Source: Elusimicrobiota bacterium
GTDB lineage: Bacteria; Elusimicrobiota; Elusimicrobia; F11
Assembly: GCA_022072025.1 (NCBI GenBank)
Contig: JAJVIP010000022.1
Coordinates: 1-33,086 of the forward strand
Direction of reading: 5' to 3'
DNA: 33,086 nt
The notes below the pieces were generated by a model. The model had not been told where the DNA came from and did no database searches. It saw only the letters and a list, made by a program, of their open reading frames with translations. This document shows positions 1 to 28,374 of the stretch, in pieces. The translations under genes were made by a program, and so were the position numbers. Within the stretch, counting starts at the first letter, position 1; each line of letters starts with the position of its first letter.

Positions 1-444
1 GTCCAACCCAGGGATTAGGGTCCCATCTATGATGTAGGGTTTGGCGTTAGACAGTTCGCCGGTTTGAACGTTTCGATCCAATTCGAGGATTTGGTTTTTG
101 TTGTCCAGGGAAACCATCACCCACATTTTTGTTCCATCGGCAGTGACGGTGGGGACACTCCAAATGTCCCATTTTTTTTCTGGCTCCAACCCCGGTATGG
201 GGGTTCCATTGATGATGATGGATTTCGCGTTGGACAAGGCGCCCGTTTGAACCTCTCGATCCAATTCGAGGATTTGGTCTTTGTTGTTCAGTTTAACCCG
301 CACCCACATTTTTGTTCCATCGGCTGAGAGGGTGGGGCTGTTCCGGATGTCCCATTTTTTTTCTGGCATACCCGGGATCGGGTCCCCGTTCCTGGGAAGA
401 CCGGGAATATCATCGGCGGTTTTGACGGTGTAGTTGTTCCAATT
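1..444 (-). repeat. Super-repeat 4, cut by the window edge
   Basis: NWNNYTVK lies at 444-421 and blade cores at 304 and 121. The frame enters the next blade (GTLIPGLD) and stays open at base 1, so the array continues beyond the window. Confidence 0.85.
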
Positions 445-3400
445 AAAGGACTTGGTTTTGGACGGAAGCAACGAACCAACCGCTCCGGCCGCGGCTTCGC
501 TGGTTTGATGTAACCTTTCAAGGGCCTGATTCAGGAGGGCGATTAATTTATCGAAAAAGGAATCGAGTGAACTGACGGTGGGAGCGGAAGAGCCTGCGGA
601 CAGGGGTGAAGCGCTTTGCGTGCTTGGCGTTGATTCGCCGCCATGCCCACCCTTTGGCGCATCCACCAATTGAGATGTTAATTCAAGGATTTGGAGTTTT
701 TTCTCCAAGTAAACCATCACCCACATTTTTTCCCCATCAACAATGACGGTGGGGGCGCTCTGGATGTCCCATTTCTTCCTCTTGCTCCTCTTGTCCAACC
801 CAGGTATGGAGGTCCCATTTATGATGACGGCTTTGGCGTTAGACAGTTCGCCGGTTTGAATATCTCGGTCCAATTCGAGCATTTGGGGTATGTTGTTCAA
901 TTTATCCACCACCCACATTTTTCTTCCATCAGCGGATAGAGTGGGGGTATCATCGACTTCCCATTTTTTCCCGGTTCCCAACCCCGGTATAGGAGTCCCA
1001 TTCATGATGACGGATTTGGCCTTGGACAGTTCGCCGGTTTGAATGTCCCGATCCAATTCGAGGATTTGGTGTTTGTAATCCAAGTAGACCCACACCCACA
1101 CTTTTGTTCCATCGGCAGAGAGGGTGGGGGAGCACTGGATGGCCCATTTTTTATATGAGTCCAACCCCGGTATGCGGGTCCCATCTATGATGGCGGATTT
1201 GGCGTTAGACAGTTGACCTGTTTGAATATCTCGGTCCAATTCGAGGATTTGGAGGTCGTTGTCGAGTTTAACCCGCACCCACATTTTTGTTCCGTCGGCA
1301 ATGACGGTGGGGCTGCTCCCAATGTCCCATTTTTTTTCTGGCTCCAAGCCAGGGATTGGGGTCCCACCTATGATGACGGATTTGGCGTTAGACAGTTGAC
1401 CTGTTTGAATATCTCGATCCAATTCGAGGATATGATCTTTGTTGTTCAGTTTAACCCGCACCCACATTTTTGTTCCATCGGCAGAGAGGGTGGGGCTACT
1501 CTGGATTTTCCAGGTTTCTCCTGGCATACCCGGGATTGAGTCTCCATTCCTGGGAAGACCGGGAATATCATCGGCGGTTTTGACGGTGTAGTTGTTCCAA
1601 TTAAAGGACTTGGTTTTGGACGGAAGCAACGAACCAACCGCTCCGGCCGCGGCTTCGCTGGTTTGATGTAACCTTTCAAAGGCCTGATTCAGGAGGGCGA
1701 TTAATTTATCGAAAAAGGAATTGAGTGAACTGACGGTGGGAGCGGAAGGACCTACGGACGAGGGTGAAGCGCTTTGCGTGCTTGGCGTTGAATCGCCTCT
1801 ATTCTCACCATTTTGCGAATCCACCGATTGAGATGTTAATTCAAGGATTTGGGGTTTGTTGTCCAGTTGAACCTGCACCCACATTTTTTCCCCTTTGGCC
1901 GAGATTGTGGGGGTGCTATAGATGTTCCATGTTTTCTCTGGATCCAACCCAGGGATGGGGGTCCCGTCGATGATGAAGGGTTTGGCGTTAGACAGTTGGC
2001 CCGTTTGAATGTCCCGATCACATTCGAGAATTTGGGACTTGTTGTCCTGTTTTACCCACACCCACATTTTTCCTCCATCGGCAGAGAGGGTGGGGCTGCT
2101 CCAGATGTCCCATTTTTCCTCTTGATCCAACCCAGGTATGGGGGTCCCATCCAGGATGACGACTTTGGCGTTAGACAGTTGCCCTGTTTGAATGTCTCGG
2201 TCCAATTCGAGCATTTGGCGTTTGTTATCCAAGTAAACCCACACCCACATTTTTGTTCCATCGGCAGAGAGGGTGGGGGCGCTCAAGATGTCCCATATTT
2301 TTTCTGGCTCCAAGCCAGGGATTAGGGTCCCATCTATGATGTAGGGTTTGGCGTTAGACAGTTGCCCTGTTTGTATGTTTCGATCCAATTCGAGGATTTG
2401 GTGTTCGTTATCCAAGTAAACCCACACCCACATTTTTGTTCCATGGACAGAGAGGATGGGGCTGCTCCGGATGTCCCATTTTTTTTCTGGCTCCAAGCCA
2501 GGGATTAGGGTCCCATCTATGATGTAGGGTTTGGCGTTAGACAGTTGCCCTGTTTGTATGTTTCGATCCAATTCGAGGATTTGGCGTTTGTTATCCAAGT
2601 AAACCCACACCCACATTTTTGTTCCATCGGCAGAGAGGGTGGGGCTGCTCCAAATGGCCCATTTTTTTTCTGGCATACTCGGGATCGGGTCCCCGTTCCT
2701 GGGAAGACCGGGAATATCATCGGCGGTTTTGACGGTGTAGTTATTCCAATTAAAGGACTTGGTTTTTGACGGAAGCAACGAACCAACCGCGCCGGCCGCC
2801 GCTTCGCCGGTTTGCTGCAACCTTTCAAGGGCCCGATGAAGGATGGCGATTAATTTATCGAGAAAGGAATCGAGCGAACTGACGGTGGGAGCGGAAGAGC
2901 CTGCGGACAGGGGTGAAGCGCTTTGCGTGCTTGGCGTTGATTCGCCGCCATGCCCACCCTTTGGCGCATCCACCAATTGAGATGTTAATTCAAGGATTTG
3001 GAGTTTGTTCTCCAGTTTAATGCACACCCAGATTTTTCCCCCTTTGGCTGAGATCGTGGGGGTGCTATAGATGTCCCATGTTTTCTCTGGATCCAACCCA
3101 GGGATTGGAGTCCCATTTATGATGACGGGTTTGGCCTTAGACAGTTGCCCTGTTTGAATGTCTCGATCCAATTCGAAGATTTGGTTTTTGTTGTCCAGGG
3201 AAACCATCACCCACATTTTTGTTCCATCGGCAGAGAGGGTGGGGGCGCTCCTGATGTCCCATTTTTTTTCTGGCTCCAAGCCAGGGATGGGGGTCCCATC
3301 CAGGATGACGACTTTGGCGTTAGAGAGTTGCCCTGTTTGAATGTCTCGGTCCAATTCGAGGATTTGGCGTTTGTTATCCAAGTAAACCCACACCCACATT

Positions 3401-6400
3401 TTTGTACAGTCGGCAGAGAGGGTGGGGGCGCTCAAGATGTCCCATATCTTTTCTGGCTCCAAGCCAGGGATGGGGGTCCCACCTATGATGGCGGATTTGG
3501 CGTTAGACAGTTGACCTGTTTGAATGTCCCGATCCAATTCGAGGATTTGGCGTTTGTTATCCAGGGAAACCATCACCCACATTTTTGATCCATCGGCAGA
3601 GAGGGTGGGGCTGCTCCGGATGTCCCATGTTTTCCCGGGGTCCAACCCAGGTATGGGGGTCCCATTCAGGATGACGGCTTTGGCTTTAGACAGTTGCCCT
3701 GTTTGTATGTTTCGATCCAATTCGAGCATTTGAGCTTTGTTATCCAGGGAAACCATCACCCACATTTTTGTTCCATCGGCAGAGAGGGTGGGGCTACTCT
3801 GGATTTTCCAGGTTTCTCCTGGCATACCCGGGATTGAGTCTCCATTCCTGGGAAGACCGGGAATAACATCGGCGGTTTTGACGGTGTAGTTGTTCCAATT
3901 AAAGGTCGGAGCGGAAGAGACATCCGGTTTTGAGGTGGATACAAGGACCTTGAGTTCCTCAAAAGTTTGCCTCAGTGTTTGCTCATCCACGAATTTGAGA
4001 GTAAGAATTTCAATGAGAAGTTCTGTAACGAGCCTTGCCAAATCCGATCCCAAATAGGGGGAAAGCCAAAGCAAAATATCTGTCAATGCGAGAATCTCAG
4101 GTTTGGGGTAAAGTTCGCGGGCCATTTCGAACAATCGGATGGCTTTACAACTTTCAATGATCACACTCGAAACAATCGGTTTATCGGAATAACCCAAGGC
4201 CTTGACCAAAGTGTCATGCGGTTGTTCAAGTGTGGCCTGGATATGGTCTGAGGAAAAGGCAAGAGCCAGGTTTTGAAGCTCTGGGTTGTTGGGGAGCGCC
4301 GTGATCGTGTTGTCCCTACGCATATCCACCAACGGAGAGGCCAATAAACACAAGGCCTCCATAACCTGGTCATGGACTTGGGTTTTATCGGCCGCTTGGC
4401 GAATTCTTTTTTTAAGGTCTTCGATGGCCCACTCACGCGCCTCTTGAGAAACCACGTCATGCAAGTGGGCAGATCGAACCCACCGCTCAAGAGCACCCCT
4501 TTGAGTTGGGTTCAACCCACCCAATGCGCTTGCTAAACATTGAACCGTCTTATTAATTGTAAGGAGATGAGTTGAATGACGGATTAAATTGTCAAAAATA
4601 AGGTCGGGATGTTCGTTTGTTAGTTTGATCAAAGGTTCATTTTCATTTTTCTCTCCACTCAAGCCCGCCAGAACCAGGCCCACCGCCTCCCCAATGGCAG
4701 GTGACAACTTGCGATTTTGAGCCGAATTGCGGGCCTTGGTTCGTAACCGCGGCCCCTCCAGGGGATGAACGGCCCTCAGGGCAACGCGCCGATGGTCGGG
4801 GTCGGTAATGATCAATTCCCGCAGATATTCTTCTTCGGCTTCCAGCAACCGCAACGGGTACCGGCCAAACTTTTGAATCAGCCGGTGAATTTGCCGATAG
4901 TCGGGCGGAGCGCCCAATTCGCTGGCCCGGTAAGCTTGCATGAGATTGAGTTGGCATTGGGCCAATGCGGTGATGGTGGTTTCATCCAAATCGTGCCAAT
5001 CAAAATCTTCTTCAACGGCTTCTTTTTTTAGACGCTTTTCATCCGCGCGAATAAGGTCTTGCAATTGTTTCAATTTCAGAGGCCGCCTTTGAAAAATGCG
5101 AACGCGAGAGGCGAACTCGGCGCTTAAAGCGTTGGACTGCGTTGACCCTGTGGCGGGGTTACCGTCAAAAACGATGTGGAATTTCCGGTTTTTGGCTTTG
5201 GCGCGGGCGGTTCTCCCCCCGGTAAAACTCTGAAACATATATTCCATGACATTGTTTAAAGCGGCCAGCGCGCTTTGTTTGCCTTTCGTGAATTCCGAAA
5301 AATTAATGGGACGGTCTTCAACCAAAGACGTTTCAAGCGGTGTTTGGGGGAAATGGCTTTTCCCGTCCACAATGTGTTGAACACCCAAAATGTCGTCTCC
5401 CTGTATGTTTTCGGTGATCTGCGGAGGTTGAACCAACCTCTGTCGCAACAACCCCTTGTACAGGTAAAGAATGGATTCAGTTTTTCCGGTGCCTTTTTCC
5501 CCGATGACCGCATAGTGATATCCCAAATAAATGGCTTTGGCCATCTGGTAGAGATCCAGTCGGTTGGTGGGAGTATCCAGAAATTCGAGGACCTCGGCTT
5601 CACTTAAAGGAAGGTCACCCCGCGCAATTGGAAATTCAGGAACTCCGGACTTGGCATCCCCAAAAACCACCATTTGTCGATCAAAATCCACCCGCGGCAT
5701 TCCCGGATCAATGGTGGGCTCCCCACTTTCATTATTCATGTAATGTTGATTGAATTTTCCCCTTCCAAAAAATTGGTCAAACCATTCGCTCATTTTTGTT
5801 TGAAACGCCTCTTGTTCTTCTTCGGCCAAGAGGAAAAGTGGATAGTCCATTAATAAAATGTCGCGAAGATAGGCCAGATCATCTGGAAATGTGAAAACTT
5901 GTTGAAGGGTTCTGCGTATCTGACGGCCATCCATAGGAGGGATATTGGCGTTTTGTCCAATGGGAGAAGCCGCATACGCCCGAATTTGGGCAGCGACATT
6001 CGCAGTCGCCATGGTGAGGTTGCGCATATGCTCTTTTGTCAGAGTTGTATCGATATTTTCAAACGACGCCATGAGCATATCGGTTTCTTCTTCAGGCGTT
6101 GGATAAGAAAAAGAGATACCGCTTAGGCGGCTGAGGAAATCGGAAACATTATCCATGCTTTGGCCGACATAAAGCCCGTTGGGGGGGTTCCACAAGAACA
6201 TCGCTCGAAAGGTGGGAGCGGCTTGAATAACCGTTTGGTCGGGCAAGCGGAGTCGACGGTTTTGGTTGATGGTGTTGAGCGCCGTCAAGGAACCGATACG
6301 CCGGGGCTTGGTGGCTTCATCCACCACAATCCAGTCGCCCACGCGGGCCGCATCGGCATATTCGCTTAAAAAAAGGTCGGTGGTTCCGGGCTTGAATAAA

Positions 6401-9400
6401 CCCACGGTTGTTTTCCAGAGCAAATCAATTTCGTTGATGTCTTCGTGCAAACTCATGGTGCGAACGGGTTGCCGCAAGAAACCGGCCAGCACATAGACAG
6501 CGGTGTTTTTGCCTGTGCTTTTGTCACCGGTGAGGGCCAGGTTGGTGGAGGCCGGGTCGGTTCGGCTCAACACTTCCATCATATCGGCCAATTGGTTCAC
6601 GAAGGTCGGAGTCAGCGTGATGACACGAGCAATCCCCTCAACGGTTAAGAGAATTTGGTTTGGAACCAGCCGGCCTTCTCTAAAAACTTGTTGAATGGTG
6701 GGAACATATTTTTCGAGCGTCGGTGTGACGTTCATTTCCTCATGGAGGGTCCATTCCCAAACTTGAGGGTTGGCCAAGGAAGCCGAAAAAAGTTGCAGGC
6801 CGTTGGTATCCGTTGCGGTCACCGACCCTTTTTTAAACACCAAACCCAGATCGGCCGGCGGCCCCTGGGCCAACCCGGTCGTGGTGCCATCCGCCTGTTG
6901 TTCGTACCAAATCCATTTTTCCCCCAACCATTCTCCGTAAATCCGAGGAGCGCCATTGGGCCGGTTAATGGAAATGCGATGCCGTTCGAGTTGCCATTCT
7001 ACGCCTTGATGATTAAAGGTGAATTTCGTGGTGTCGGGGCGAATGGGAAGCCTGACCTTTTGTCCCCATTTGTCAACCATGGTGAAATAATGTGTCCCAT
7101 TTATTTCCTCAAACGCATAGGGTGGACTGGCGGGGTTGCCCGCTTGTGAAGGGGGCGTAAGTTTCGCCGCTATCCCCACAAGGCCCATCCCAAGCATCAT
7201 GACGAACACCTCAATAGATGGGAATCCGTTCCATAAAAAATAACTGACCAAAACTCCGATCACCAACAACGGAGCCGCCCAATCATGCGCCTTGCGAACT
7301 TTGGCGGTGGCTTTTTTAATCATCTTTTCAGTTTGGGCCACCAGTTCGGACCGAAGTTTTTCCGCGCTCTCCACATGGGTCCAGAAAACGCGGGGGTTCG
7401 TTGCAGACTCGTAAACCTCCTTGATGACTTTTCCAACCGATTCTCCCCCGCCCACACCGGCCGTGAAATAAAAGACGTTTTTATTGGCCGGATCGTTAAA
7501 GATGGCTTGGATTTCGTCGCGAACCTGCGGCACATTTCCGTCGGTTCCGTGAATAACCAAGGTAATGGCGCGTTCTCCTTGGGCGCGTTTCCGTAAAGAT
7601 TCGCTTCCATTTCTTAAAGTGGGCGTGTCCGCTGTTCCCCGACGATTCAGCGGAGAAGAAAATAATTTTCCGATGGCTTGAGCCAATTCTTTTTCGCTGA
7701 GTTTTTGGCCAAACGAAAAAACCTTGATGTTGTCCTCCGCCGCGTACGCCCTGATTTCCGCGTCCAAATGGAGGAGGTCCCTCCACTTCCCATTTCTATT
7801 CAATTCGATGAAGGCCATTGCCTGGGCAATGAAGGCAATGGTGGTTTGAACCAAGGGAGAATTCATGTCCAATTTCTTTTCATCGGCATAGGGACCCCCC
7901 ATGCTGCCGCTCATGTCCAAAATCATTTCGAGCAACACCGTCAAAGAATCTGGAGCCGTGGTTCGCTCCAAAGCTCGTCCATCAATTAAGATATGGGCGA
8001 TATTTTTCTGGTCCACTGATTTCCCCGAGATTTGTCGCCCTTCTTTTCCTTCTGTGATCAACGACTCAAAATACGGCGCCCATTTGTTTTTTAATGTTGC
8101 CACCAACGGCATCGCGGCCTGCCGCAATTCCACCCAATGTTCGGCCCATTCAGGGGATATATTGAGACGCTCGGCCCATTCCCCTGGTGTATTACCAATA
8201 CTGGGGTTTCCGCCAGAGACGGCCGGGGTGTTTGCCAAAGCGTTCAAATCAGACAACAAACCTTCATCTATGATTTTCCGGTCAACCTCTGGAGAAGAAC
8301 CCTCTGGCGTTTCAGCGGGGCCAGGGAAAATCTCTCCGGGAGGGGTCAGAATGTTTCCCAAGATATTCGACAATTGTGACAGGGTCGCCGCCAAGTCATC
8401 GGCCTTGGACCCCACATCCTGCGCTTTGGATTCGATTTCTCCCGACTCACGGTCAATGCCTTGAGACTTGGCCGCCGTTTCAGTTTTGTCTTCTCCACTT
8501 CCCTGGTTGATCGCATTCAAAAGACTTTGGGCGGCTTCGGCCATTTGGCCGCTGATTGCTTGGACCTGGCCGGCGGCATGGTCCATTTGGGCCGCGCTAT
8601 CTGAAGCGGCATTGGCTCCTTGTTCAAGCGGAGGCTGATCTTCCATGGCTTTGAGACCCTGGGAGGTGTTTTGAACGCCTTTCAAAAGATCGTGGGTTTT
8701 GTTTTTTAAATCCTCCGCCGCCGTTGCCAACTGCTGGGCCAAATCTTGCATGGTGTTGGCGGTTTGGCCGCGGTTCCCATTTCCTTCTTGAGCGATCTCT
8801 TTGGCTTTCTGTCCCAACTGATGGGCGAAAACCGCCACTTGGCTGGCCTGATCTTTGATGGCCGGAAGATCTCCCCCCAACGCTGTTAATTTATCGTGAA
8901 GATTTTGAATATGTTGGGCAAGGTTTAGATGTTTTTCCGCGCCTTCTCTGGCGCCTTGCCCGGCTCCACCCAATTGACACGCTAAATTTTTGGTCGCCTG
9001 GTTCATTTTCGTTTTGGACCCATCCCCCCTCTGTCCAAGCTCCTCCGCGGTCTGATCTTTGGACTCTTTGGCCACCTCATCCAAAAGTTTTTTAAACACC
9101 GGCCAAATTTTTTCCCGCAAGAGGCTGAGTGAAATGGAAATTTGCTCAATTTGAACAAGGGCGGGGTTTCGTTCGGGATCGATCCCTTGTTGATCTCGCA
9201 CTTTCGCTTTGGCTTGTTGAAGAATGGTTTCTTGATCAAAAAATTCGTCCCACGCGGGTCTTGTTTCCTTAATTTTTTCAGCGACAACGGAATCAATACG
9301 AGGATCGGATTGCTTCTTGCGCGCGTTGAACATCACCCCCTCCAAATATTGGATATAGGCCGGCTGTTTTTTCATCCGTTCTCGCGCGGCCGGATTTTTT

Positions 9401-12400
9401 GGATTGGGGTACGCCTTCAGCACCAGGCGATCAAACACCTCCTCAAGACCGAGCCTTTTCATCAGCAACTCTTTCTCCGCCAACAGCATGTAAGCGACCC
9501 CCCAAAAAAGTTGAAACTCCGCGCTGTTGGATTCCTCAGCTATAAAGGTTGTTTTGAGGCGCTGCAAGACCACGATCGCCTGCGCCAAGCCTTTCATTTT
9601 GGTGATGGCCTCATCGGGATCAAAAAATTCTTGAACTGGATATTCAAGAAACGCCACCTCCTTTTCTGATTGCGGGGTAAAACGCCAATGGGGTTGGTCG
9701 GTGGGAGAATTCGCTTTCCACGGCTTCACCCTCAGTTTTGAAAGGCCCGTGAGGCTTTGCACTTCTTCCGTTAAATAAGTGGTTAAACGTTTTTCTCGTT
9801 CCTTGTCAAAAAACACGGGTTCAAAATTTTTTGATCCGTAAATCTTGGCCAATGTTGTGTTGGCATATTCGATCAGATGTCTTAACGCGGGGAAGGGATT
9901 GGTATCGGTTCCCTTTTCGGATCCGTACCAATGGTGGAAGACCATGCCCACGAAAACCCCGACCTTGCGCTCCGCATAGGTGGGGGCATTGGTCCAATTT
10001 AATAGGGCGTTTTGTTGACTTGAAAATTCAAATTCCTCCCAATGCTCAATGACGACTTCACTGACGATTTGAATCAGGGTTAAAAATTCTTTTTCCGAAA
10101 TCCCTTCGCCGGGCCTGTGGCTCTCGGCGAATTTTTGAGCGGCTTCGAACAAAATCAGGCCCGCTTCTTCGCCGTGTTGATTAAAACGTTCTTTGGTGGG
10201 TCTTTCATGGCGCAACAACTCCAGCATGGACACCGCCATCGGCATGAGCTCGCTGGAGGAAGGAAGCAATAAAACCTGGCGGTTACACAACCCATGAATG
10301 GTCTCGTGCAGAGCGATTTCGCTGGATTGGGTTTTGTCAGAGCGAGGCTGCATCACCACGCACAAATTGGAACGATCCAACTGAATATGATCTGGAATCA
10401 GGCGTTCATCTGTGAAATTTAAATTGGCGAGAAATCTAGCAATGATTTCTTCGAAAGGGCGGTTGTCACGAATGGCTTTTATGAATAATGAAGGCAGCAA
10501 AATGGTTTCCCCATTGGCCGCCACCAACTCAAAATGCTCTTTGAAGGGTTGAATGTCCTCTCTTTGATCCTCCGGGAACGAATCAAAAAGGACATGGACT
10601 CGTTCAGCAATATGATTCCGCATCTCTTGTGAGAGGTCTTCCTTGTTCCCCAGAATCCACAGTTCAGCGGCGCTCAGGGGTTTGAGGGGAAGATCGGGAT
10701 AGGTGGGCCAAATCCGTTTTGAATTGGAATCGTTTAAATAACCGCGCAACTCATCATAATTTCCAACAGAGTCGCGAATCTTTTGCGCCAGTTGGATGGC
10801 CGTCTGAACATCCGCTTGAAACTTGGGGATGTCTCGATTCTTAATATGACGAAGAAGATGAAGTGTTGTTTCGCGGTAAGTTTCGATATCGGCTTGAATT
10901 GGCGTTCTCTGCTTCGGGTCCACAGAGGGCTCCGTGGACAAGCGAAACGGCATCCAGCGTTGCCATAAAAAGGGCCTTAACCATTGGTAGGGGGGGCTCG
11001 TTTGTCGGATTTTTTGGTAGGCCAACAAAGCCGCCTGGACCCCATCTCCCACCAAGAGATTAAAACCGGCGATAAAAATATTTATCCCCATTACCGCTTC
11101 AAAAAATACGGGTTCATTAAATAGGATGTTTCCAATCCACCCGGTCAAGGCCAAAGCCAGATTCAAGGCCGGTCCCGCCAAATAAACCCGCACATGGGGA
11201 CGGCGGGCATCAAATTCGACGGGTTTGGCGCTGATCCCTTTCCAATGTTTGAAAAGATTGAGTGTGAGCCGCCCCTGGGCGCGCGGCATGTTGTCGCCCA
11301 AGTAAACCGCAGTCCAAGCATGGGCCCATTCGTGTAAGACCACCGAGATGACAATCAGCGCCAACCAAAGGGGTTGTTGAATGCCTGTGTGTTGGAATAA
11401 ACCGAAGGTAACAGAGATCGCGGTCGCATAGAAAGAGGCCCAGGCCCATTCTCTGAAGGGAGTTCCGCCATTCATAGCCTTCTTCGCCAATTTAAAAAAC
11501 AAGGGGGACGCCTCGGTGCGCAGGGGGGGCGCCTCGATCTGGGGTGCCAGCGGACCAATTCCCTCCGGTAAAGCCAAAAATAATTTTCTTCCTGAAAACA
11601 ACTTCTCAAGCGGTGATTTTTCTCGCAAGAAATAACGAAGCGCCTGGGTCCCGCTGGCCGTTTCAATACGTGAAATACGTGGGGTCAACACCGCAGTCGA
11701 ATAGCCCTGCTCTTTCAGCAATTCGAGCATTCCGGGCGTATGAAACCCGCCCGCCACCACAACCGATGTCTTTTCCCGCCCCAACTGGGCCACCATGGCG
11801 TGGTTGCGCTCTTCGGCGCAACGATAAAAATCCTCAAAGGGTGACAAATGAGGAAAAACCTGGCCCCCCGCCAATAACATGCCGGGGCGACGAAGGGACT
11901 GAAGTGTTTGCATCAGAGATCTATATTCAGACCATTCTTCAGGGGTCAGGGAAAATGTGATGAGTTTATTGGCCAAGCCGAGCCAACGATCGTTGTTGAG
12001 GAACTCCATCTCCGCCGCAGACGGCTTGAGTTGTTTTAAATAGGTCTTTTCAACCAGAGCCAAATCGGTCATCACACGGGCCGCTTCAATGGAATCGGCC
12101 AGCGATAGATATTGAAGGTAGGCTCTAAATGCGGGAGTGCTCGATAAGGACAACCGATATTTAGAAAAAAGGGACGTCAGAAAATAATACAGCTGGTTGG
12201 GACTCAAATGCTGAGTTTGAAAAGCTTGGGTTAATTCCAACAGAGTCTTTTCCTCTTGCTTGGAGAGCAAAGGGGCGAGCTTTGACAAAACATGGCCCCG
12301 CTCCGCTTGAGCCCGCGAAAAATCGATGGACCGTTCCAACTCATAGGCCGTTAAAAAAGTTTCGAGACCCAACGGGACATTCTCATCCCCCACCGCGCGC

Positions 12401-13104
12401 GCGAGCCGAATGGCATATTCCCCAAGAGACAGCCGGCCTTCTCGATAGGATATTTTCAACTCACGAAAGTCTTTGATTTGGCCTGACTGAGCCAAAGCTT
12501 CTTGTGTCAATTGCTCGTCGATCTTTTTCAACTTCTTTTCCACGTCCCCGTGATGATCCATGGCTTTTCGATATGAGGCAACGTGTTTGGAATAGAGGTC
12601 GGGTTGTTCGACTCCTTTGATCGTGAGTTTTGAAAAAACAGAATCTGGAAGTGTGAGACCGGCCAAAGAAACAGCCCCTATTCGTCCCTCTTTGACAAAA
12701 AGATCGGCAATTTTTTTGATTCGTGGAGCGGTGGAAGAGGCACGAAAACGCCTATAGTCAAATTCTCCACTGGATCCTTCCACTCCAACGGTGAGAGACG
12801 GAGTGGCTTGTGCCAATATGTCCAATGTCGCCGCCATGTTGCGCTGGGCTTCCTCATTGAGATGAATATCTTCCAGAATAAAAACGTGAGGACGCCCTGA
12901 GGACAGGGAGCCTTTTTTAAGACGCGCGAAGGGCGCCAGTCGATGGTTCAACAAGGAAGCCATTGGCGATATCGGCTGGAGTTTCAAGCGTTCTTCTAAA
13001 TATGCCTGTTCAATACGGCTCGCAAAAGCTCCCTGGACGAAAATCGATATACATATAAGGAAGGCCAATATTTTTTTCATCGTCGGTAATATTGACAAAC
13101 CCAC
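1..13104 (-). CDS. Giant multidomain exported/membrane protein (3' end beyond the window)
   Basis: The minus strand is open in one frame from the GTG at 13104 to the window edge, at least 4,368 codons; I saw no in-frame stop while reading it. GTG 13104 is chosen because AAGGAGAT (13111-13118) lies 6 bases upstream. The in-frame ATG at 13080 has no well-placed site, although the signal peptide hydrophobic core begins there. Domains by residue: signal peptide 1-28; TraB/ChaN-like about 69-480; M50-like membrane peptidase 549-695 (HEWAH 591-595); second HExxH (HETIH 933-937); Ala/Gln-rich helices 1369-1600; VWA about 1700-1930 (D1730, S1732, S1734); membrane hairpin 1942-1980; AAA+ 1 about 2120-2400; AAA+ 2 about 2505-2800; helical region to about 3064; propeller-like repeats to the edge. 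The VWA plus MoxR/midasin-like AAA+ pairing suggests a remodelling or chaperone machine on one chain; the repeats suggest a binding surface. Exact function is unknown. Confidence 0.9.
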   Translation of the reverse strand, partial: MGLSILPTMKKILAFLICISIFVQGAFASRIEQAYLEERLKLQPISPMASLLNHRLAPFARLKKGSLSSGRPHVFILEDIHLNEEAQRNMAATLDILAQATPSLTVGVEGSSGEFDYRRFRASSTAPRIKKIADLFVKEGRIGAVSLAGLTLPDSVFSKLTIKGVEQPDLYSKHVASYRKAMDHHGDVEKKLKKIDEQLTQEALAQSGQIKDFRELKISYREGRLSLGEYAIRLARAVGDENVPLGLETFLTAYELERSIDFSRAQAERGHVLSKLAPLLSKQEEKTLLELTQAFQTQHLSPNQLYYFLTSLFSKYRLSLSSTPAFRAYLQYLSLADSIEAARVMTDLALVEKTYLKQLKPSAAEMEFLNNDRWLGLANKLITFSLTPEEWSEYRSLMQTLQSLRRPGMLLAGGQVFPHLSPFEDFYRCAEERNHAMVAQLGREKTSVVVAGGFHTPGMLELLKEQGYSTAVLTPRISRIETASGTQALRYFLREKSPLEKLFSGRKLFLALPEGIGPLAPQIEAPPLRTEASPLFFKLAKKAMNGGTPFREWAWASFYATAISVTFGLFQHTGIQQPLWLALIVISVVLHEWAHAWTAVYLGDNMPRAQGRLTLNLFKHWKGISAKPVEFDARRPHVRVYLAGPALNLALALTGWIGNILFNEPVFFEAVMGINIFIAGFNLLVGDGVQAALLAYQKIRQTSPPYQWLRPFLWQRWMPFRLSTEPSVDPKQRTPIQADIETYRETTLHLLRHIKNRDIPKFQADVQTAIQLAQKIRDSVGNYDELRGYLNDSNSKRIWPTYPDLPLKPLSAAELWILGNKEDLSQEMRNHIAERVHVLFDSFPEDQREDIQPFKEHFELVAANGETILLPSLFIKAIRDNRPFEEIIARFLANLNFTDERLIPDHIQLDRSNLCVVMQPRSDKTQSSEIALHETIHGLCNRQVLLLPSSSELMPMAVSMLELLRHERPTKERFNQHGEEAGLILFEAAQKFAESHRPGEGISEKEFLTLIQIVSEVVIEHWEEFEFSSQQNALLNWTNAPTYAERKVGVFVGMVFHHWYGSEKGTDTNPFPALRHLIEYANTTLAKIYGSKNFEPVFFDKEREKRLTTYLTEEVQSLTGLSKLRVKPWKANSPTDQPHWRFTPQSEKEVAFLEYPVQEFFDPDEAITKMKGLAQAIVVLQRLKTTFIAEESNSAEFQLFWGVAYMLLAEKELLMKRLGLEEVFDRLVLKAYPNPKNPAARERMKKQPAYIQYLEGVMFNARKKQSDPRIDSVVAEKIKETRPAWDEFFDQETILQQAKAKVRDQQGIDPERNPALVQIEQISISLSLLREKIWPVFKKLLDEVAKESKDQTAEELGQRGDGSKTKMNQATKNLACQLGGAGQGAREGAEKHLNLAQHIQNLHDKLTALGGDLPAIKDQASQVAVFAHQLGQKAKEIAQEGNGNRGQTANTMQDLAQQLATAAEDLKNKTHDLLKGVQNTSQGLKAMEDQPPLEQGANAASDSAAQMDHAAGQVQAISGQMAEAAQSLLNAINQGSGEDKTETAAKSQGIDRESGEIESKAQDVGSKADDLAATLSQLSNILGNILTPPGEIFPGPAETPEGSSPEVDRKIIDEGLLSDLNALANTPAVSGGNPSIGNTPGEWAERLNISPEWAEHWVELRQAAMPLVATLKNKWAPYFESLITEGKEGRQISGKSVDQKNIAHILIDGRALERTTAPDSLTVLLEMILDMSGSMGGPYADEKKLDMNSPLVQTTIAFIAQAMAFIELNRNGKWRDLLHLDAEIRAYAAEDNIKVFSFGQKLSEKELAQAIGKLFSSPLNRRGTADTPTLRNGSESLRKRAQGERAITLVIHGTDGNVPQVRDEIQAIFNDPANKNVFYFTAGVGGGESVGKVIKEVYESATNPRVFWTHVESAEKLRSELVAQTEKMIKKATAKVRKAHDWAAPLLVIGVLVSYFLWNGFPSIEVFVMMLGMGLVGIAAKLTPPSQAGNPASPPYAFEEINGTHYFTMVDKWGQKVRLPIRPDTTKFTFNHQGVEWQLERHRISINRPNGAPRIYGEWLGEKWIWYEQQADGTTTGLAQGPPADLGLVFKKGSVTATDTNGLQLFSASLANPQVWEWTLHEEMNVTPTLEKYVPTIQQVFREGRLVPNQILLTVEGIARVITLTPTFVNQLADMMEVLSRTDPASTNLALTGDKSTGKNTAVYVLAGFLRQPVRTMSLHEDINEIDLLWKTTVGLFKPGTTDLFLSEYADAARVGDWIVVDEATKPRRIGSLTALNTINQNRRLRLPDQTVIQAAPTFRAMFLWNPPNGLYVGQSMDNVSDFLSRLSGISFSYPTPEEETDMLMASFENIDTTLTKEHMRNLTMATANVAAQIRAYAASPIGQNANIPPMDGRQIRRTLQQVFTFPDDLAYLRDILLMDYPLFLLAEEEQEAFQTKMSEWFDQFFGRGKFNQHYMNNESGEPTIDPGMPRVDFDRQMVVFGDAKSGVPEFPIARGDLPLSEAEVLEFLDTPTNRLDLYQMAKAIYLGYHYAVIGEKGTGKTESILYLYKGLLRQRLVQPPQITENIQGDDILGVQHIVDGKSHFPQTPLETSLVEDRPINFSEFTKGKQSALAALNNVMEYMFQSFTGGRTARAKAKNRKFHIVFDGNPATGSTQSNALSAEFASRVRIFQRRPLKLKQLQDLIRADEKRLKKEAVEEDFDWHDLDETTITALAQCQLNLMQAYRASELGAPPDYRQIHRLIQKFGRYPLRLLEAEEEYLRELIITDPDHRRVALRAVHPLEGPRLRTKARNSAQNRKLSPAIGEAVGLVLAGLSGEKNENEPLIKLTNEHPDLIFDNLIRHSTHLLTINKTVQCLASALGGLNPTQRGALERWVRSAHLHDVVSQEAREWAIEDLKKRIRQAADKTQVHDQVMEALCLLASPLVDMRRDNTITALPNNPELQNLALAFSSDHIQATLEQPHDTLVKALGYSDKPIVSSVIIESCKAIRLFEMARELYPKPEILALTDILLWLSPYLGSDLARLVTELLIEILTLKFVDEQTLRQTFEELKVLVSTSKPDVSSAPTFNWNNYTVKTADVIPGLPRNGDSIPGMPGETWKIQSSPTLSADGTKMWVMVSLDNKAQMLELDRNIQTGQLSKAKAVILNGTPIPGLDPGKTWDIRSSPTLSADGSKMWVMVSLDNKRQILELDRDIQTGQLSNAKSAIIGGTPIPGLEPEKIWDILSAPTLSADCTKMWVWVYLDNKRQILELDRDIQTGQLSNAKVVILDGTPIPGLEPEKKWDIRSAPTLSADGTKMWVMVSLDNKNQIFELDRDIQTGQLSKAKPVIINGTPIPGLDPEKTWDIYSTPTISAKGGKIWVCIKLENKLQILELTSQLVDAPKGGHGGESTPSTQSASPLSAGSSAPTVSSLDSFLDKLIAILHRALERLQQTGEAAAGAVGSLLPSKTKSFNWNNYTVKTADDIPGLPRNGDPIPSMPEKKWAIWSSPTLSADGTKMWVWVYLDNKRQILELDRNIQTGQLSNAKPYIIDGTLIPGLEPEKKWDIRSSPILSVHGTKMWVWVYLDNEHQILELDRNIQTGQLSNAKPYIIDGTLIPGLEPEKIWDILSAPTLSADGTKMWVWVYLDNKRQMLELDRDIQTGQLSNAKVVILDGTPIPGLDQEEKWDIWSSPTLSADGGKMWVWVKQDNKSQILECDRDIQTGQLSNAKPFIIDGTPIPGLDPEKTWNIYSTPTISAKGEKMWVQVQLDNKPQILELTSQSVDSQNGENRGDSTPSTQSASPSSVGPSAPTVSSLNSFFDKLIALLNQAFERLHQTSEAAAGAVGSLLPSKTKSFNWNNYTVKTADDIPGLPRNGDSIPGMPGETWKIQSSPTLSADGTKMWVRVKLNNKDHILELDRDIQTGQLSNAKSVIIGGTPIPGLEPEKKWDIGSSPTVIADGTKMWVRVKLDNDLQILELDRDIQTGQLSNAKSAIIDGTRIPGLDSYKKWAIQCSPTLSADGTKVWVWVYLDYKHQILELDRDIQTGELSKAKSVIMNGTPIPGLGTGKKWEVDDTPTLSADGRKMWVVDKLNNIPQMLELDRDIQTGELSNAKAVIINGTSIPGLDKRSKRKKWDIQSAPTVIVDGEKMWVMVYLEKKLQILELTSQLVDAPKGGHGGESTPSTQSASPLSAGSSAPTVSSLDSFFDKLIALLNQALERLHQTSEAAAGAVGSLLPSKTKSFNWNNYTVKTADDIPGLPRNGDPIPGMPEKKWDIRNSPTLSADGTKMWVRVKLNNKDQILELDREVQTGALSNAKSIIINGTPIPGLEPEKKWDIWSVPTVTADGTKMWVMVSLDNKNQILELDRNVQTGELSNAKPYIIDGTLIPGLD
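445..1602 (-). repeat. Super-repeat 3: five blades plus linker
   Basis: Length 1158 bp; blade cores lie at 1462, 1279, 1096, 913 and 721. The 913-721 step is 192 bp, an in-frame 9-bp insertion. The cap is the super-repeat 1 version, and 131 bp of its linker (569-699) are identical to 2876-3006 in super-repeat 1. Confidence 0.85.
1603..2751 (-). repeat. Super-repeat 2: five blades plus linker
   Basis: Also 1149 bp, with NWNNYTVK at 2751-2728 and blade cores at 2611, 2428, 2245, 2062 and 1879. Its cap reads IPGLPRNGDPIPSMP, the version shared with super-repeat 4 rather than 1 and 3. Its linker is a diverged version (LTSQSVDSQNGENRGDSTP). Confidence 0.85.
2752..3900 (-). repeat. Super-repeat 1: five propeller-like blades plus helical linker
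   Basis: Length 1149 bp (383 residues). It opens with NWNNYTVK (3900-3877) and an IPGLPRNGDSIPGMP cap, followed by five blades whose shared ccaca core (plus strand) starts at 3760, 3577, 3394, 3211 and 3028, exactly 183 bp apart. Each blade reads SPTLSADGTKMWV, a Leu-Asp-Asn-Lys turn, ILELDR, QTGQLSNAK and TPIPGL. The last blade is cut short and runs into a Ser/Thr/Pro-rich linker with one amphipathic helix (LDSFLDKLIAILHRALERL). The SP-LS-DG pattern resembles PD40/TolB-type propeller repeats, but the unit is longer. Confidence 0.85.
3913..4677 (-). other. Unrecognised helical region before the repeats
   Basis: Residues about 2810-3064 are mostly helical in character (EREWAIEDLKKR-like amphipathic stretches, LLWLSPYLGSDLARL), with no motif I recognise. 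It may be an alpha-solenoid-like spacer between the AAA+ ring and the propeller array. It ends in a Ser/Pro-rich stretch just before the first NWNNYTVK. Confidence 0.4.
4705..5592 (-). other. AAA+ module 2 of the giant protein, degenerate Walker B
   Basis: Walker A is GEKGTGKT (2535-2542). At the Walker B position the sequence is PINFSEF, so the expected Asp is Ser2603 while the catalytic Glu is kept (Glu2604). DGNPATGSTQSN gives the sensor-1 Asn of MoxR proteins (2649), and FASRVRIF holds arginine-finger candidates. The module can probably bind ATP; hydrolysis may be weak. Tandem AAA+ units with one impaired site are common in dynein and midasin relatives. Confidence 0.75.
5905..6747 (-). 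other. AAA+ module 1 (MoxR/midasin-like) of the giant protein
   Basis: Walker A is GDKSTGKN (2193-2200). Walker B is DWIVVDEATK with Asp2262 and Glu2263. A sensor-1-like Asn follows in MFLWNPPNG, and arginines in DFLSRLSG could be finger residues. The order, and the phrase on rehearsing targets after Walker B (ALNTINQNRRLRL), match MoxR and midasin AAA+ units. It should bind and probably hydrolyse ATP. Confidence 0.8.
7150..7287 (-). other. Transmembrane hairpin between VWA and AAA+ modules
   Basis: Residues 1942-1958 (WAAPLLVIGVLVSYFLW) and 1964-1980 are hydrophobic, with only five residues between them. The segment could be a two-helix hairpin or one kinked helix; which it is decides on which side of the membrane the AAA+ modules lie. 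Confidence 0.6.
7315..8007 (-). other. VWA domain with intact MIDAS in the giant protein
   Basis: The strand LLEMILDMSGSMG carries the DxSxS metal site (D1730, S1732, S1734). GTADTPT near residue 1828 and HGTDGN (D1855) match the later MIDAS threonine and aspartate positions. This is the CobT/NorD/BatA-like type of VWA domain. In relatives the domain coordinates Mg2+ and binds a client protein for an AAA+ partner; here the AAA+ modules follow on the same chain. Confidence 0.8.
8305..9000 (-). other. Ala/Gln-rich helical, coiled-coil-like stretch
   Basis: Residues 1369-1600 are rich in Ala, Gln, Asp and Leu with heptad-like spacing and repeated short motifs (LAQQLA, AAQSLL, SKADDLAATL), then turn Pro/Gly rich. 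It resembles the helical and acidic linkers before VWA domains in chelatase-like proteins. It probably acts as a spacer or oligomerisation region. Confidence 0.55.
9865..10557 (-). other. Second HExxH (zincin-like) segment of the giant protein
   Basis: HETIH at residues 933-937 follows a helix start (EIALHETIHGLCN), the usual setting of a zinc-binding helix in gluzincins. Acidic residues downstream (for example the NQHGEEAG stretch) could supply a third ligand, but I cannot assign one. It is separate from the M50 motif and not in a membrane segment. It may be a soluble metallopeptidase domain or an inactive relative. Confidence 0.45.
11020..11460 (-). other. M50 (site-2 protease)-like membrane segment of the giant protein
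   Basis: Residues 549-695 contain four hydrophobic stretches. The second ends in HEWAH (591-595), the HExxH zinc motif of M50 peptidases. The third begins YLAGPALN, matching the conserved GP-N segment of the family, and the fourth carries NLLVGDG (682-688), placed like the family's N-x-x-P-x-x-x-LDG motif. The two His plus Asp687 would be the zinc ligands. This predicts an intramembrane zinc peptidase fused inside a larger protein. Confidence 0.7.
11665..12900 (-). other. TraB/ChaN-like domain of the giant protein
   Basis: Residues 69-480. The start reads HVFILEDIHLNEEAQ with His81, followed by VGVEGSSG with Glu109; the end reads VVVAGGFHTPGM with His455. An N-terminal xxxH strand, an acidic residue after the second strand and a C-terminal GGFH motif are the pattern of the TraB/Tiki, ChaN and erythromycin-esterase-like fold. 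Those relatives are metal-dependent hydrolases or haem-binding proteins. The specific activity here cannot be read from the sequence. By the signal peptide this domain should be outside the cytoplasm. Confidence 0.55.
11858..11891. repeat. Half of a palindromic repeat embedded in coding sequence
   Basis: These 34 bases match 20999-21032, the right half of the nested palindrome at 20950-21032, at 31 of 34 positions, and end in the same 16 bases (aacatgccggggcgac). No match to the left half is seen upstream. On the minus strand the segment is read in frame by the giant gene, around residues 405-416 (LRRPGMLLAGG), inside the TraB-like domain. Confidence 0.6.
13021..13104 (-). other. Signal peptide of the giant protein
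   Basis: Residues 1-28 contain a short N region with Lys10-Lys11, a hydrophobic core (ILAFLICISIFV) and a small-residue end (GAFA before Ser29) that fits signal peptidase I. Export of the N-terminus is therefore likely. If translation began at ATG 13080 the signal would be even more canonical. Confidence 0.75.
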
Positions 13105-13825: not shown

Positions 13826-14983
13826 ATGATATCTAGAATTCTGAGCCAGCGCTTAAAAAGCTCCAAAAAAAGCGTTTTATTGCTGGGACCGCGACAAGTT
13901 GGAAAATCAACGGTATGTCGAGCTTTGAATCCCAAACGAATAATCAATCTGGCTGACGAATCAATTTTCCTGAGTTATTCAAAAGATGCCGCAAAACTTT
14001 TACGGGAATTGCGCGCCGATCGAGAACCTGGCCTGATTGTTATTGATGAAATTCAACGAGTCCCGGCGCTGCTTAATTCTGTTCAAGCCTTTCTCGATGA
14101 AGGAGGGCTGTCTCGATTTATTCTCACAGGGTCAAGTGCCAGAAAACTGAAAAGAGGAGGGGCCAACTTATTGCCAGGAAGAATAATTTTGGAACACTTG
14201 GATCCGCTAAACATTTGGGAATTAAAAGAAGAATTTGAACTTGAAAAGATTTTGTTGCAAGGAAGTTTACCGGGTATCTACACCGATCCAACTGAAGGTT
14301 TACAGGTTCTGAATACCTATGCCCAGGTATATATTCGAGAGGAGATCCAAGCAGAATCTCTGACCAAAAACATCGGCGCCTATGCCAGATTTCTCGATGC
14401 AGCGGCAGAGGCCAGTGGTGATTGGCTGAATTACTCAAAATTTTCAAGCGATGCAGAACTCTCCAAAACATCTGTGCGACGATTTTTCGACATTTTGACT
14501 GAAACGTTGATAGCGTTCCGCCTGCCAGCTTTTGAACCACGCCAATCGCACCGACGGATCAGTCAGCGGGACCGTTATATTTTTTTTGACATTGGAGTGC
14601 GCAATGCCATTCTTGGATTGGCGGGCCAAATTCTTCCCAACATTGAGAAAGGAAAACTATTTGAACAATGGTTTATTTTGCAATGTTTCTCTTATGCTCA
14701 TTCGTTTGGAAATCAGTGGAAGTTCTCATCATTTCGAACGGATACCGGCTTAGAAGTTGATTTAATCATTGATACGGGCCCTCATCTCATTGCGGCAGAA
14801 TGTAAATACAGCCGCAACGTGAGTGAAACAGACCTGCGGGGCTTGCGCGCCTTTAGCGAATTGGCCCACAAACCCGTGAAAAAATATTTAATTTGCCTGG
14901 CCGACCAGCCTCAGAAATTCCCAAAAGATGAAGTGGCAATAAATTATAAAGACTTTCTATTAAAAGAGGTCCCCACGTTATAA
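13826..14983 (+). CDS. DUF4143-type AAA+ ATPase (AAA_14 family)
   Basis: This gene encodes 385 residues, full family length. The N-terminal AAA+ domain has Walker [10 protein letters not shown] (21-29), Walker B LIVIDEIQ (Asp74, Glu75) and the typical [11 protein letters not shown] sensor strand. A winged-helix-like middle part ([22 protein letters not shown]) precedes the DUF4143 C-terminus, where GLEVDLI and AAECKYS form the D-(E)xK signature of a PD-(D/E)xK nuclease-like fold. These proteins are common accessory genes of unclear role, often suspected in defence or toxin-antitoxin-like functions. It begins without a ribosome binding site. acs follows 11 bases after its stop, so read-through into acs is possible. 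A second family member lies at 31822-32964. Confidence 0.9.
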
Positions 14984-26724: not shown

Positions 26725-28374
26725 ATGCAAAAAAAACGTAACCCTCATGGCGTGACCGCCAGCAAAACAAAACCGGCTCCGCCTCCGGCCAGAAAACCCG
26801 TGGCCGTCATAAAAGCGGGGAACACGGAAGCCGATAAAATGGCCGCCAAGCAGCGCGATATTTCCGTCAGTGAATTCTTTTTAAAGAACCGACATCTGCT
26901 GGGATTTGATAACGCGAAGAAGGCGCTTTTAACAACGGTCCGCGAAGCGGTCGACAACAGCCTGGACGCGTGCGAAGAAGCGAAAATTTCTCCCGAGATA
27001 TGGGTCGAGATCAAACAATTGGCGGACGACCGATTTTCGGTCGTCGTCGCTGACAATGGCCCCGGTGTGGTGAAAGAACAAATCCCCCGCATTTTTGGAA
27101 AACTGCTCTACGGCTCAAAATTCCATTCGATGAAACAAAGCCGCGGCCAACAGGGCATCGGCATATCGGCCGCCGGCATGTATGGCCAATTGACGACCGG
27201 TTCTCCCACCCGCATCACCTCACGCATATCCGCCAAAAAACCGGCCCATTATTTCGAGATCCAGATCGACACGGCGAAAAACCAGCCGACCGTGATCAAA
27301 GACGAAGTGGTCCAATGGAAACGGCCGCATGGCACCAAGGTGGAAATTGAGTTGGAAGCCAAATTCCAAAAAGGCCGCCACTCGGTGGAAGATTATGTTC
27401 GCCAAACCATCATTGCGAACCCCCACATCGAACTCACGTATCATGGGCCCGATGGAGTCAAAGAACATTACAAACCCGCCAGCCGCGCCCTCCCCATTCA
27501 ACCCAAAGAAATAAAACCGCATCCGCACGGTGTTGAGCTGGGGATCCTCATGAAAATGCTCAAAAGCTCGACGTCCCGATCGGTTAAAACATTCTTGGCG
27601 AAGGATTTTGCCCGCGTATCTTCGAAGGTGGCCGGCGCCATCCTGAAATCGGCGGGCATCGATCCCAACGCCAAACCGACGGAAATTGCCCACAACGAAG
27701 CCGACAAATTGCACAAAGCCATTGGGCAAACCAAAATCATGAATCCCCCCACCAACTGCCTCTCTCCCATTGGTGAAAACAATCTTCTGAACGGTTTAAA
27801 GAAAAATATCACAGCTGAATTTTATACCGCGCTCACGCGCCCCCCTTCGGTGTACCGAGGCAACCCCTTCCAGATTGAGGTGGCGGTGGCTTATGGCGGC
27901 GAGTTGCCGAAAGAAGAATTGGCCGAGGTGATGCGCTTCGCGAACCGCGTGCCTCTTTTGTACCAGCAATCCGCTTGCGCCATCACGAAAAGCGTTCTCC
28001 AGACCGCCTGGAAAAATTACGGCCTCGAACAATCAAAAGGCGCGCTTCCCACAGGGCCGGTTCTCATCGCGGTCCATATGGCGAGCGTGTGGGTGCCCTT
28101 TACCTCCGAATCCAAGGAAGCCGTGGCCTCCTACGCAGAAATCACCAAAGAAATTCGCTTGGCGCTGCAAGAATGTGGACGACGACTTGACACCCATCTG
28201 CGTCGCGGACACCGCGAGGCCGAAGCCAAGCGAAAAAAAGATTACATCCGCTCTTACCTGCCGCACATCGGTATCGGCCTTCGCGAAATTTTGGGATTCA
28301 AAGAAAAAGAACAGAAACATATCCTCAACCTCCTCACCGACATCTTGGAAAAGGACAAAACCTCCCATGGATAA
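26725..28374 (+). CDS. top6B: DNA topoisomerase VI subunit B
   Basis: This gene encodes 549 residues, normal length. The ATPase subunit drives DNA strand passage by the A2B2 enzyme, which relaxes and decatenates DNA. The GHKL fold shows the N-box EAVDNSLDA (Asn78), DNGPG (110-114) and GQQGIG (141-146). The H2TH-like segment and transducer domain follow, with NRVPLLYQQ and ACAITKSV carrying the switch lysine. The first 40 residues are a Lys/Pro/Ala-rich extension; Met39 is an alternative start. It overlaps top6A by 8 bases. Topo VI is archaeal and eukaryotic in origin and is found in only some bacteria, so transfer is likely. Confidence 0.96.
   Translation: MQKKRNPHGVTASKTKPAPPPARKPVAVIKAGNTEADKMAAKQRDISVSEFFLKNRHLLGFDNAKKALLTTVREAVDNSLDACEEAKISPEIWVEIKQLADDRFSVVVADNGPGVVKEQIPRIFGKLLYGSKFHSMKQSRGQQGIGISAAGMYGQLTTGSPTRITSRISAKKPAHYFEIQIDTAKNQPTVIKDEVVQWKRPHGTKVEIELEAKFQKGRHSVEDYVRQTIIANPHIELTYHGPDGVKEHYKPASRALPIQPKEIKPHPHGVELGILMKMLKSSTSRSVKTFLAKDFARVSSKVAGAILKSAGIDPNAKPTEIAHNEADKLHKAIGQTKIMNPPTNCLSPIGENNLLNGLKKNITAEFYTALTRPPSVYRGNPFQIEVAVAYGGELPKEELAEVMRFANRVPLLYQQSACAITKSVLQTAWKNYGLEQSKGALPTGPVLIAVHMASVWVPFTSESKEAVASYAEITKEIRLALQECGRRLDTHLRRGHREAEAKRKKDYIRSYLPHIGIGLREILGFKEKEQKHILNLLTDILEKDKTSHG

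Follow-up and report, generated by a model that had tools for sequence, protein, structure and literature searches.

Organization of the locus and of the giant gene

The window, viz. the whole stretch of 33,086 nucleotides that was analysed, is a complete contig (C22 of genome G000). Its first 13,104 bases are occupied by a single frame on the minus strand, which runs from position 13104 to position 1 through 4,368 codons without a stop, with the entire run on one contig. In 30 mononucleotide-shuffled versions of this stretch, of the same length, the longest frame did not exceed 237 codons. The frame opens with a GTG at 13104, with an in-frame ATG 8 codons further on. Bases 1-113 of the window have one other exact copy in the whole genome, which is the end of contig C7, and there the gene runs on along the minus strand (10251-7798, locus L005) to a stop preceding ATP synthase genes. 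When the two contigs are joined, the encoded protein is at least 5,148 aa long; this value is a minimum because contig C22 breaks off within a repeat array, copies of which may have collapsed in assembly at the C22-C7 junction. The original prediction of one continuous chain of at least 4,368 residues is thus borne out, and the extension of the contig that it proposed as a check has led to the stop on C7, past the 113-nt overlap. It is highly improbable that this chain is an artefact of assembly or annotation in which separate genes have been fused. The gene is carried by two contigs joined solely by a 113-nt overlap inside a repeat, but within the window it runs through 4,368 stop-free codons on one contig, and the same architecture is seen in independent assemblies (G003, G002, G010, G290, G292 and G294); for the part of the gene in the window, a joining artefact is refuted. 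The features of the locus are listed below with their positions in the window and, where applicable, the residues of the protein.

1..13104, minus strand: giant gene, with its N-terminus at 13104 and its 3' end off the contig, carried on in contig C7
1..113, no strand: exact overlap of 113 nt with the end of contig C7
13113..13118, minus strand: ribosome-binding site AAGGAG, 8 nt ahead of the GTG start, read directly from the sequence
13021..13080, minus strand: Sec-type signal peptide, residues 9-28 (MKKILAFLICISIFVQGAFA/S), from sequence and hydropathy
11560..12987, minus strand: candidate TraB/PrgY/ChaN (Tiki superfamily)-like domain, residues 40-515, motifs EDIHxNxEAQ and GGFH
10930..11472, minus strand: M50-like membrane metallopeptidase, residues 545-725, motifs HEWAH, GPALN and GDG
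9820..10902, minus strand: conserved HExxH...E zinc-peptidase-like domain, residues 735-1095, HETIH at 10294-10308 and Glu952 at 10249-10251
9085..9795, minus strand: conserved helical domain, residues 1104-1340, which in the split operon of G224 likewise adjoins the VWA and recurs in other genomes of the phylum
8155..9084, minus strand: Gln/Ala-rich helical (coiled-coil-like) linker, residues 1341-1650, weak coiled-coil family matches, 14% D/E and 8% K/R
7300..8136, minus strand: VWA with MIDAS motif DMSGSMG, residues 1657-1935, with D, S and S invariant, and a PDB profile match
7153..7278, minus strand: two-helix membrane hairpin, residues 1943-1984, from hydropathy, also in G003
5809..6603, minus strand: AAA1, residues 2168-2432, Walker A GDKSTGKN and Walker B VVDEA, Pfam AAA_5, invariant motifs
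4756..5619, minus strand: AAA2, residues 2496-2783, Walker A GEKGTGKT, second Pfam AAA_5 stretch, and alignment
3910..4734, minus strand: tail region (residues 2791-3065) that matches no family and is common to G003
1..3900, minus strand: 61-aa repeat array, residues 3069-4368, in modules of about five repeats and a helical spacer

The TraB/ChaN-like domain that had been predicted is a weak assignment: its two motifs are conserved, being kept in two family relatives, but the Pfam matches to TraB (0.022, in the window protein) and ChaN (0.14, in a relative), which belong to the same superfamily and both fall at the C-terminal GGFH, are below the cut-off. No match to this domain was found among PDB sequences, and the structural confirmation that was attempted failed with an AlphaFold model that was too weak (pLDDT 69), the fold search yielding no significant match, with EreC among the weak ones. 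For the predicted M50-like HEWAH module, the full motif set is present and Peptidase_M50 matches the isolated stretch with E=3.3e-4, but the score of 20.5 falls short of the Pfam cut-off of 27.2. Among the six sequences aligned at this position, these motifs are seen only in the window protein, and because they are missing from the other five, the M50 module is, on the sequences compared, an accessory of the window species that lies outside the conserved machine. The second HExxH of the prediction fared better, as its His, Glu and His as well as a Glu downstream are invariant in nine sequences. In the AlphaFold model of the zinc-peptidase-like domain plus the helical domain (pLDDT 84.7), the HExxH lies within one helix and the downstream Glu opens the next helix. 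Classing of this domain by its fold was also tried, and no significant match was found in the PDB; because the confident fold matches no solved fold significantly, the identification as a zinc peptidase is based on the motif, and peptidase activity is putative.

The MIDAS-containing VWA and the two AAA+ units which had been predicted are both confirmed. Pfam AAA_5 was found twice above the cut-off (E=1.2e-20). The VWA in the window protein itself is below the Pfam cut-off; its DxSxS MIDAS residues are invariant in nine sequences, and the profile of these nine members, when compared with the PDB, matches the MIDAS domain of midasin first (1.3e-6) and then other VWA proteins, with CobT at 3.3e-5. 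The Walker B of AAA2 is degenerate in the window protein, reading INFSE versus VIIDE in most relatives, viz. a change of Asp to Ser. The idea that the window genome holds a further copy in split form was rejected, as the other two-AAA ORFs examined (on C2 and C14) failed to match the core profiles. With regard to the repeat array and propeller that had been placed in the chain, the 61-aa array is real, but no profile makes its repeats propellers: they match neither a PDB profile nor the profile of the adjacent WD40 propeller. The latter lies beyond the window, on C7, where it comes after the last repeats and is itself followed by one TM helix, a C-terminal domain of ~200 aa and the stop. The array is also present in G003, whose contig likewise ends within it.

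Conserved core, split operon and six-AAA relatives

A scan of the genome contigs with the single protein found nothing, and an alignment-based search was needed for the relatives to be found. The AAA-pair profile matches in 21 of 341 genomes of the phylum that were searched (E <= 1e-10), and no relatives were found in the plasmid and viral collections. Those relatives that bear names comprise Elusimicrobia MAGs together with 'Candidatus Obscuribacterium magneticum'. The phylum is accordingly Elusimicrobiota, and an origin in Omnitrophota, which the original prediction mentions for its giant proteins, is rejected. G003, a member of the same family, has the same architecture with 40% identity across the VWA-AAA region. 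The window protein, G003, G002, G010, G011 and G326 have the order of the core in common, viz. peptidase-like domain, helical domain, VWA, AAA1 and AAA2, and confidence in this anatomy of the core is high. The peptidase motif, the VWA MIDAS and the Walker motifs are retained over deep divergence, except for the Walker B of AAA2 in the window protein, and the parts at the N- and C-termini differ among relatives (TraB-like, NHL, WD40 and 61-aa repeats). In G224 (L022:4884-14467, minus strand), most of the parts occur as three adjacent genes in which the order is kept: helical domain-coiled coil-VWA, AAA-AAA-ankyrin and Rce1-trypsin-PDZ. The first two of these genes are coupled through an ATGA overlap, and this split version lacks the HExxH domain.

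Some other observations were made in the genomes of these relatives. A second giant ORF is present in G010 (L024:12067-19998, minus strand), with three AAA_5, WD40 repeats and a divergent VWA; the fusing of two G010 contigs into a longer chain was dropped, as their ends do not overlap. G326 (L072) encodes a relative of 6,534 aa with its N-terminus off the contig. In G003 (L021:2-8488, plus strand), the relative has immediately upstream of it an ORF of 2,829 aa whose product carries AAA_11/AAA_12 helicase domains.

In G290, G292 and G294, which belong to family f21, one ORF (6,090, 5,192 and 6,027 aa long, respectively) combines the peptidase-like domain and the VWA with three AAA1-AAA2 pairs, i.e. 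six AAA+ modules, and six AAA_5 stretches are detected independently by Pfam in G290. The Walker A and B motifs of the f21 modules are intact, as far as the aligned motifs were readable. In a tree of 40 AAA modules, AAA1 and AAA2 are split with 100/100 support, and the modules of the first pair and of the third pair cluster by position across species. This clustering by position indicates that the pair was multiplied before the divergence of the f21 genera. Based on the triplication, a trimer is proposed for the one-pair window protein, in which three chains with two modules each would form a six-membered ring. In another f21 genome, G296, a lone AAA pair and the peptidase-like domain lie on separate contigs (C78 and C85; L074 and L104), which may represent an intermediate or a fragmented gene.

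Rea1 (midasin), dynein and RNF213 have been described as a special subclass with six concatenated AAA modules (PMC11603028), and no earlier bacterial case of six AAA modules in a single chain was found in the open-access literature that was searched. The occurrence of two-module, six-module and split-operon forms in one phylum provides a natural series for the origin of a concatenated ring, and this series predicts a trimer for the window form and a monomer for the six-AAA form. It can be suggested, tentatively and with more doubt than confidence, that Elusimicrobiota export a midasin-like machine in which one chain supplies all six AAA modules of the ring and also carries a VWA and a zinc peptidase. 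If this is true, then six concatenated AAA modules are not a eukaryotic invention only, an AAA+ motor works outside the cytoplasm where it is fed by external ATP, and the one-pair window protein represents the two-module state preceding the triplication.

Comparison with midasin and other AAA+/VWA systems

Midasin (Rea1/Mdn1) is a eukaryotic pre-60S remodelling factor, in which an AAA ring is followed by a linker of ~1,700 aa, a D/E-rich region and a C-terminal VWA. When the AAA-pair profile is compared with the PDB, midasin ranks ahead of CobS and NorQ/CbbQ with E=1e-53, a value summed over its six AAA modules, and one stretch of the match extends from one AAA module across the linker into the AAA module that follows. 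For AAA2 alone, the best midasin module scores 61 bits, as compared with 40 for NorQ and 37.5 for CobS. The comparison with midasin made in the original prediction therefore holds, in that midasin is the closest among solved proteins for both the AAA pair and the VWA. However, the lead over CobS and NorQ is modest per module and comes from a ranking of profiles rather than from a tree including midasin, and for these reasons homology is demonstrated to the level of the MoxR clade and no closer. Similar to midasin, the AAA modules and a MIDAS VWA share one giant chain, and in the f21 relatives there are also six concatenated AAA modules. Unlike midasin, the window protein has two AAA modules rather than six, its VWA lies ahead of the AAA block, the linker before the VWA is Gln/Ala-rich with 14% D/E, and the bacterial chain adds a zinc-peptidase-like domain, a signal peptide and repeats; no link to the ribosome was seen for the window protein. 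Due to its two AAA modules and different domain order, the window protein is not midasin by definition.

Of the features of the MoxR/AAA_5 type, the chain carries AAA_5 modules with Walker A and B (that of AAA2 being partly degenerate) and a DxSxS VWA. With NorQD, CbbQO and CobST it shares an AAA+/VWA pair of the same clade, and the split operon of G224 resembles their two-protein layout. It differs from them in being one chain with two or six AAA modules in tandem versus one per subunit, and in its peptidase-like domain and giant repeats. In its size class, the window protein is similar to the giant ORFs of Omnitrophota and Elusimicrobiota, the latter phylum being enriched in proteins of >5,000 aa, and these ORFs have been described as poorly characterised or as having few annotated domains (PMC10066038, PMC11573180). 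Unlike in those ORFs, here a core is identified that is conserved across families, so that some of the unexplained huge proteins of Elusimicrobiota are now given an identifiable core.

Possible function and cellular location

The interpretation towards which we lean, as somewhat better than an even bet, is that the product of the gene is a giant remodelling machine of Elusimicrobiota that resembles midasin and combines AAA+ with VWA. As judged from the sequences, its conserved core consists of the HExxH...E peptidase-like domain, the helical domain, the coiled-coil linker, the MIDAS VWA, AAA1 and AAA2 in one chain, and it is flanked by N-terminal domains that vary from lineage to lineage and by C-terminal repeat surfaces. 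That it acts in the manner of midasin has about an even chance, and its peptidase activity, trimeric state and export are presumptive. In such a machine, the VWA would capture a protein ligand via its MIDAS metal, and the AAA modules would close a six-membered ring, either from three AAA1-AAA2 chains or, in the six-AAA relatives, from one chain. ATP turnover would then rotate or pull the VWA and the linker, as proposed for NorQD and midasin, and the strained ligand would be remodelled and perhaps also cleaved by the zinc peptidase of the chain itself, with the WD40 propeller and the repeats possibly serving as a docking surface. Coupling of force between VWA and AAA has been proposed for NorQD from cryo-EM and biochemistry (PMC13036017), and it has been argued for Rea1 (PMC11603028). 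This reading is favoured by the profiles of the AAA pair and the VWA that match midasin first, the conservation of the motifs, the triplication in f21 and the operon of G224. What counts against it is the change of Asp to Ser in the Walker B of AAA2 in the window protein, the peptidase-like domain, whose fold matches nothing significantly and which the G224 operon lacks, the VWA-before-AAA order unlike that of midasin, the modest lead of midasin per module, and the lack of a known ATP supply if the protein is exported. The earlier view of a self-contained unfolding or processing machine is correct with regard to an AAA+/VWA pair in one chain; however, 'self-contained' is doubtful, because a six-membered ring needs more than two AAA modules and because one relative (G224) runs the same parts as separate proteins.

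Conflict systems that combine MoxR-vWA with propellers and peptidases were predicted by Kaur et al. (2020; PMC7159879), and the window protein could be a fused defence system of this kind, in which the AAA/VWA pair would impose a threshold, the repeats would act as sensor and the peptidase as effector. The ingredients of such ternary systems, viz. MoxR, vWA, beta-propeller and peptidase, are shared with them, and a trypsin/PDZ protein and ankyrin repeats are encoded in the G224 operon. However, no third component with a variable N-terminus was recognised in the chain or in the translations of its neighbours, no VMAP, iSTAND, FtsH or variable effector occurs in the chain or beside it, and no variability of effectors is seen. 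Further, its P-loops (GDKSTGKN and GEKGTGKT) are not of the GXXXTAKS form often present in the propeller subsystem, no PADLOC anti-phage model matches the VWA-AAA core, and the protein has a signal peptide; a conflict system is thus quite improbable. MoxR-VWA pairs commonly mature metalloenzymes or complexes, and this common role, together with midasin, CobST and NorQD being the nearest solved relatives, would suit a housekeeping envelope chaperone of the NorQD/CobST type dedicated to a specific membrane complex, with the giant flanks as a scaffold. The patchy spread among the genomes of the phylum that were searched, the highly variable flanks, and the fact that no metalloenzyme was recognised nearby in the window make this explanation unlikely as well, if slightly less so than a conflict system.

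The remodelling machine that we favour must also be placed in the cell. By eye, from sequence and hydropathy, Sec-type signal peptides are seen in the window protein, in G290 and G292, and in all three G224 proteins. Between the signal peptide and the AAA modules, no membrane helix is found in G290, G292 or the AAA protein of G224, and in G290 and G292 there is none among the AAA modules either; a membrane helix ahead of the peptidase-like domain, considered as a general feature, is contradicted by these two. The window protein contains 13 Cys, whereas 40 are expected from the local background (Poisson 6e-7, which ignores overdispersion), and the AAA span of G290 has 2 Cys in 2,917 aa as against ~37 expected, the background sets being small. 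The signal peptides and the depletion of cysteine suggest export; in the window protein and in G003, the K/R residues on the VWA side of the hairpin next to this domain suggest that the VWA is cytoplasmic. From its signal peptide and cysteine depletion the window protein would lie at or beyond the inner membrane, and its AAA ring may face either side. The 'surface-related' nature claimed earlier fits the signal peptide and the cysteine depletion and is putative.

It is possible, although we regard it as doubtful, that the whole chain including the AAA ring lies outside the inner membrane as an exported, ATP-gated machine that is active only with external ATP, e.g. when touching lysed or invaded cells. 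This would agree with the six-AAA relatives G290 and G292, with the AAA-AAA-ankyrin protein of G224, which has a clean signal peptide starting from its stop-overlapping ATG, and with the low cysteine counts. However, the AAA span of G326, unlike all others, is rich in cysteine (2%), the K/R residues of the hairpin point to the opposite placement, the background sets are limited, and the signal peptides were called by eye and hydropathy. Moreover, to our knowledge the periplasm is normally without ATP, and export would therefore leave the source of ATP unexplained; if export is confirmed, the question arises of where an AAA+ motor beyond the cytoplasm obtains its fuel.

Elsewhere in the window, two similar ATPases that look AAA_14/DUF4143-like are encoded at 13826-14983 (plus strand) and 31822-32964 (minus strand). 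Two overlapping ORFs at 26725-28374 and 28175-29458 (plus strand) have translations resembling the B and A subunits, respectively, of topoisomerase VI, an enzyme of archaeal/plant type that is uncommon in bacteria.
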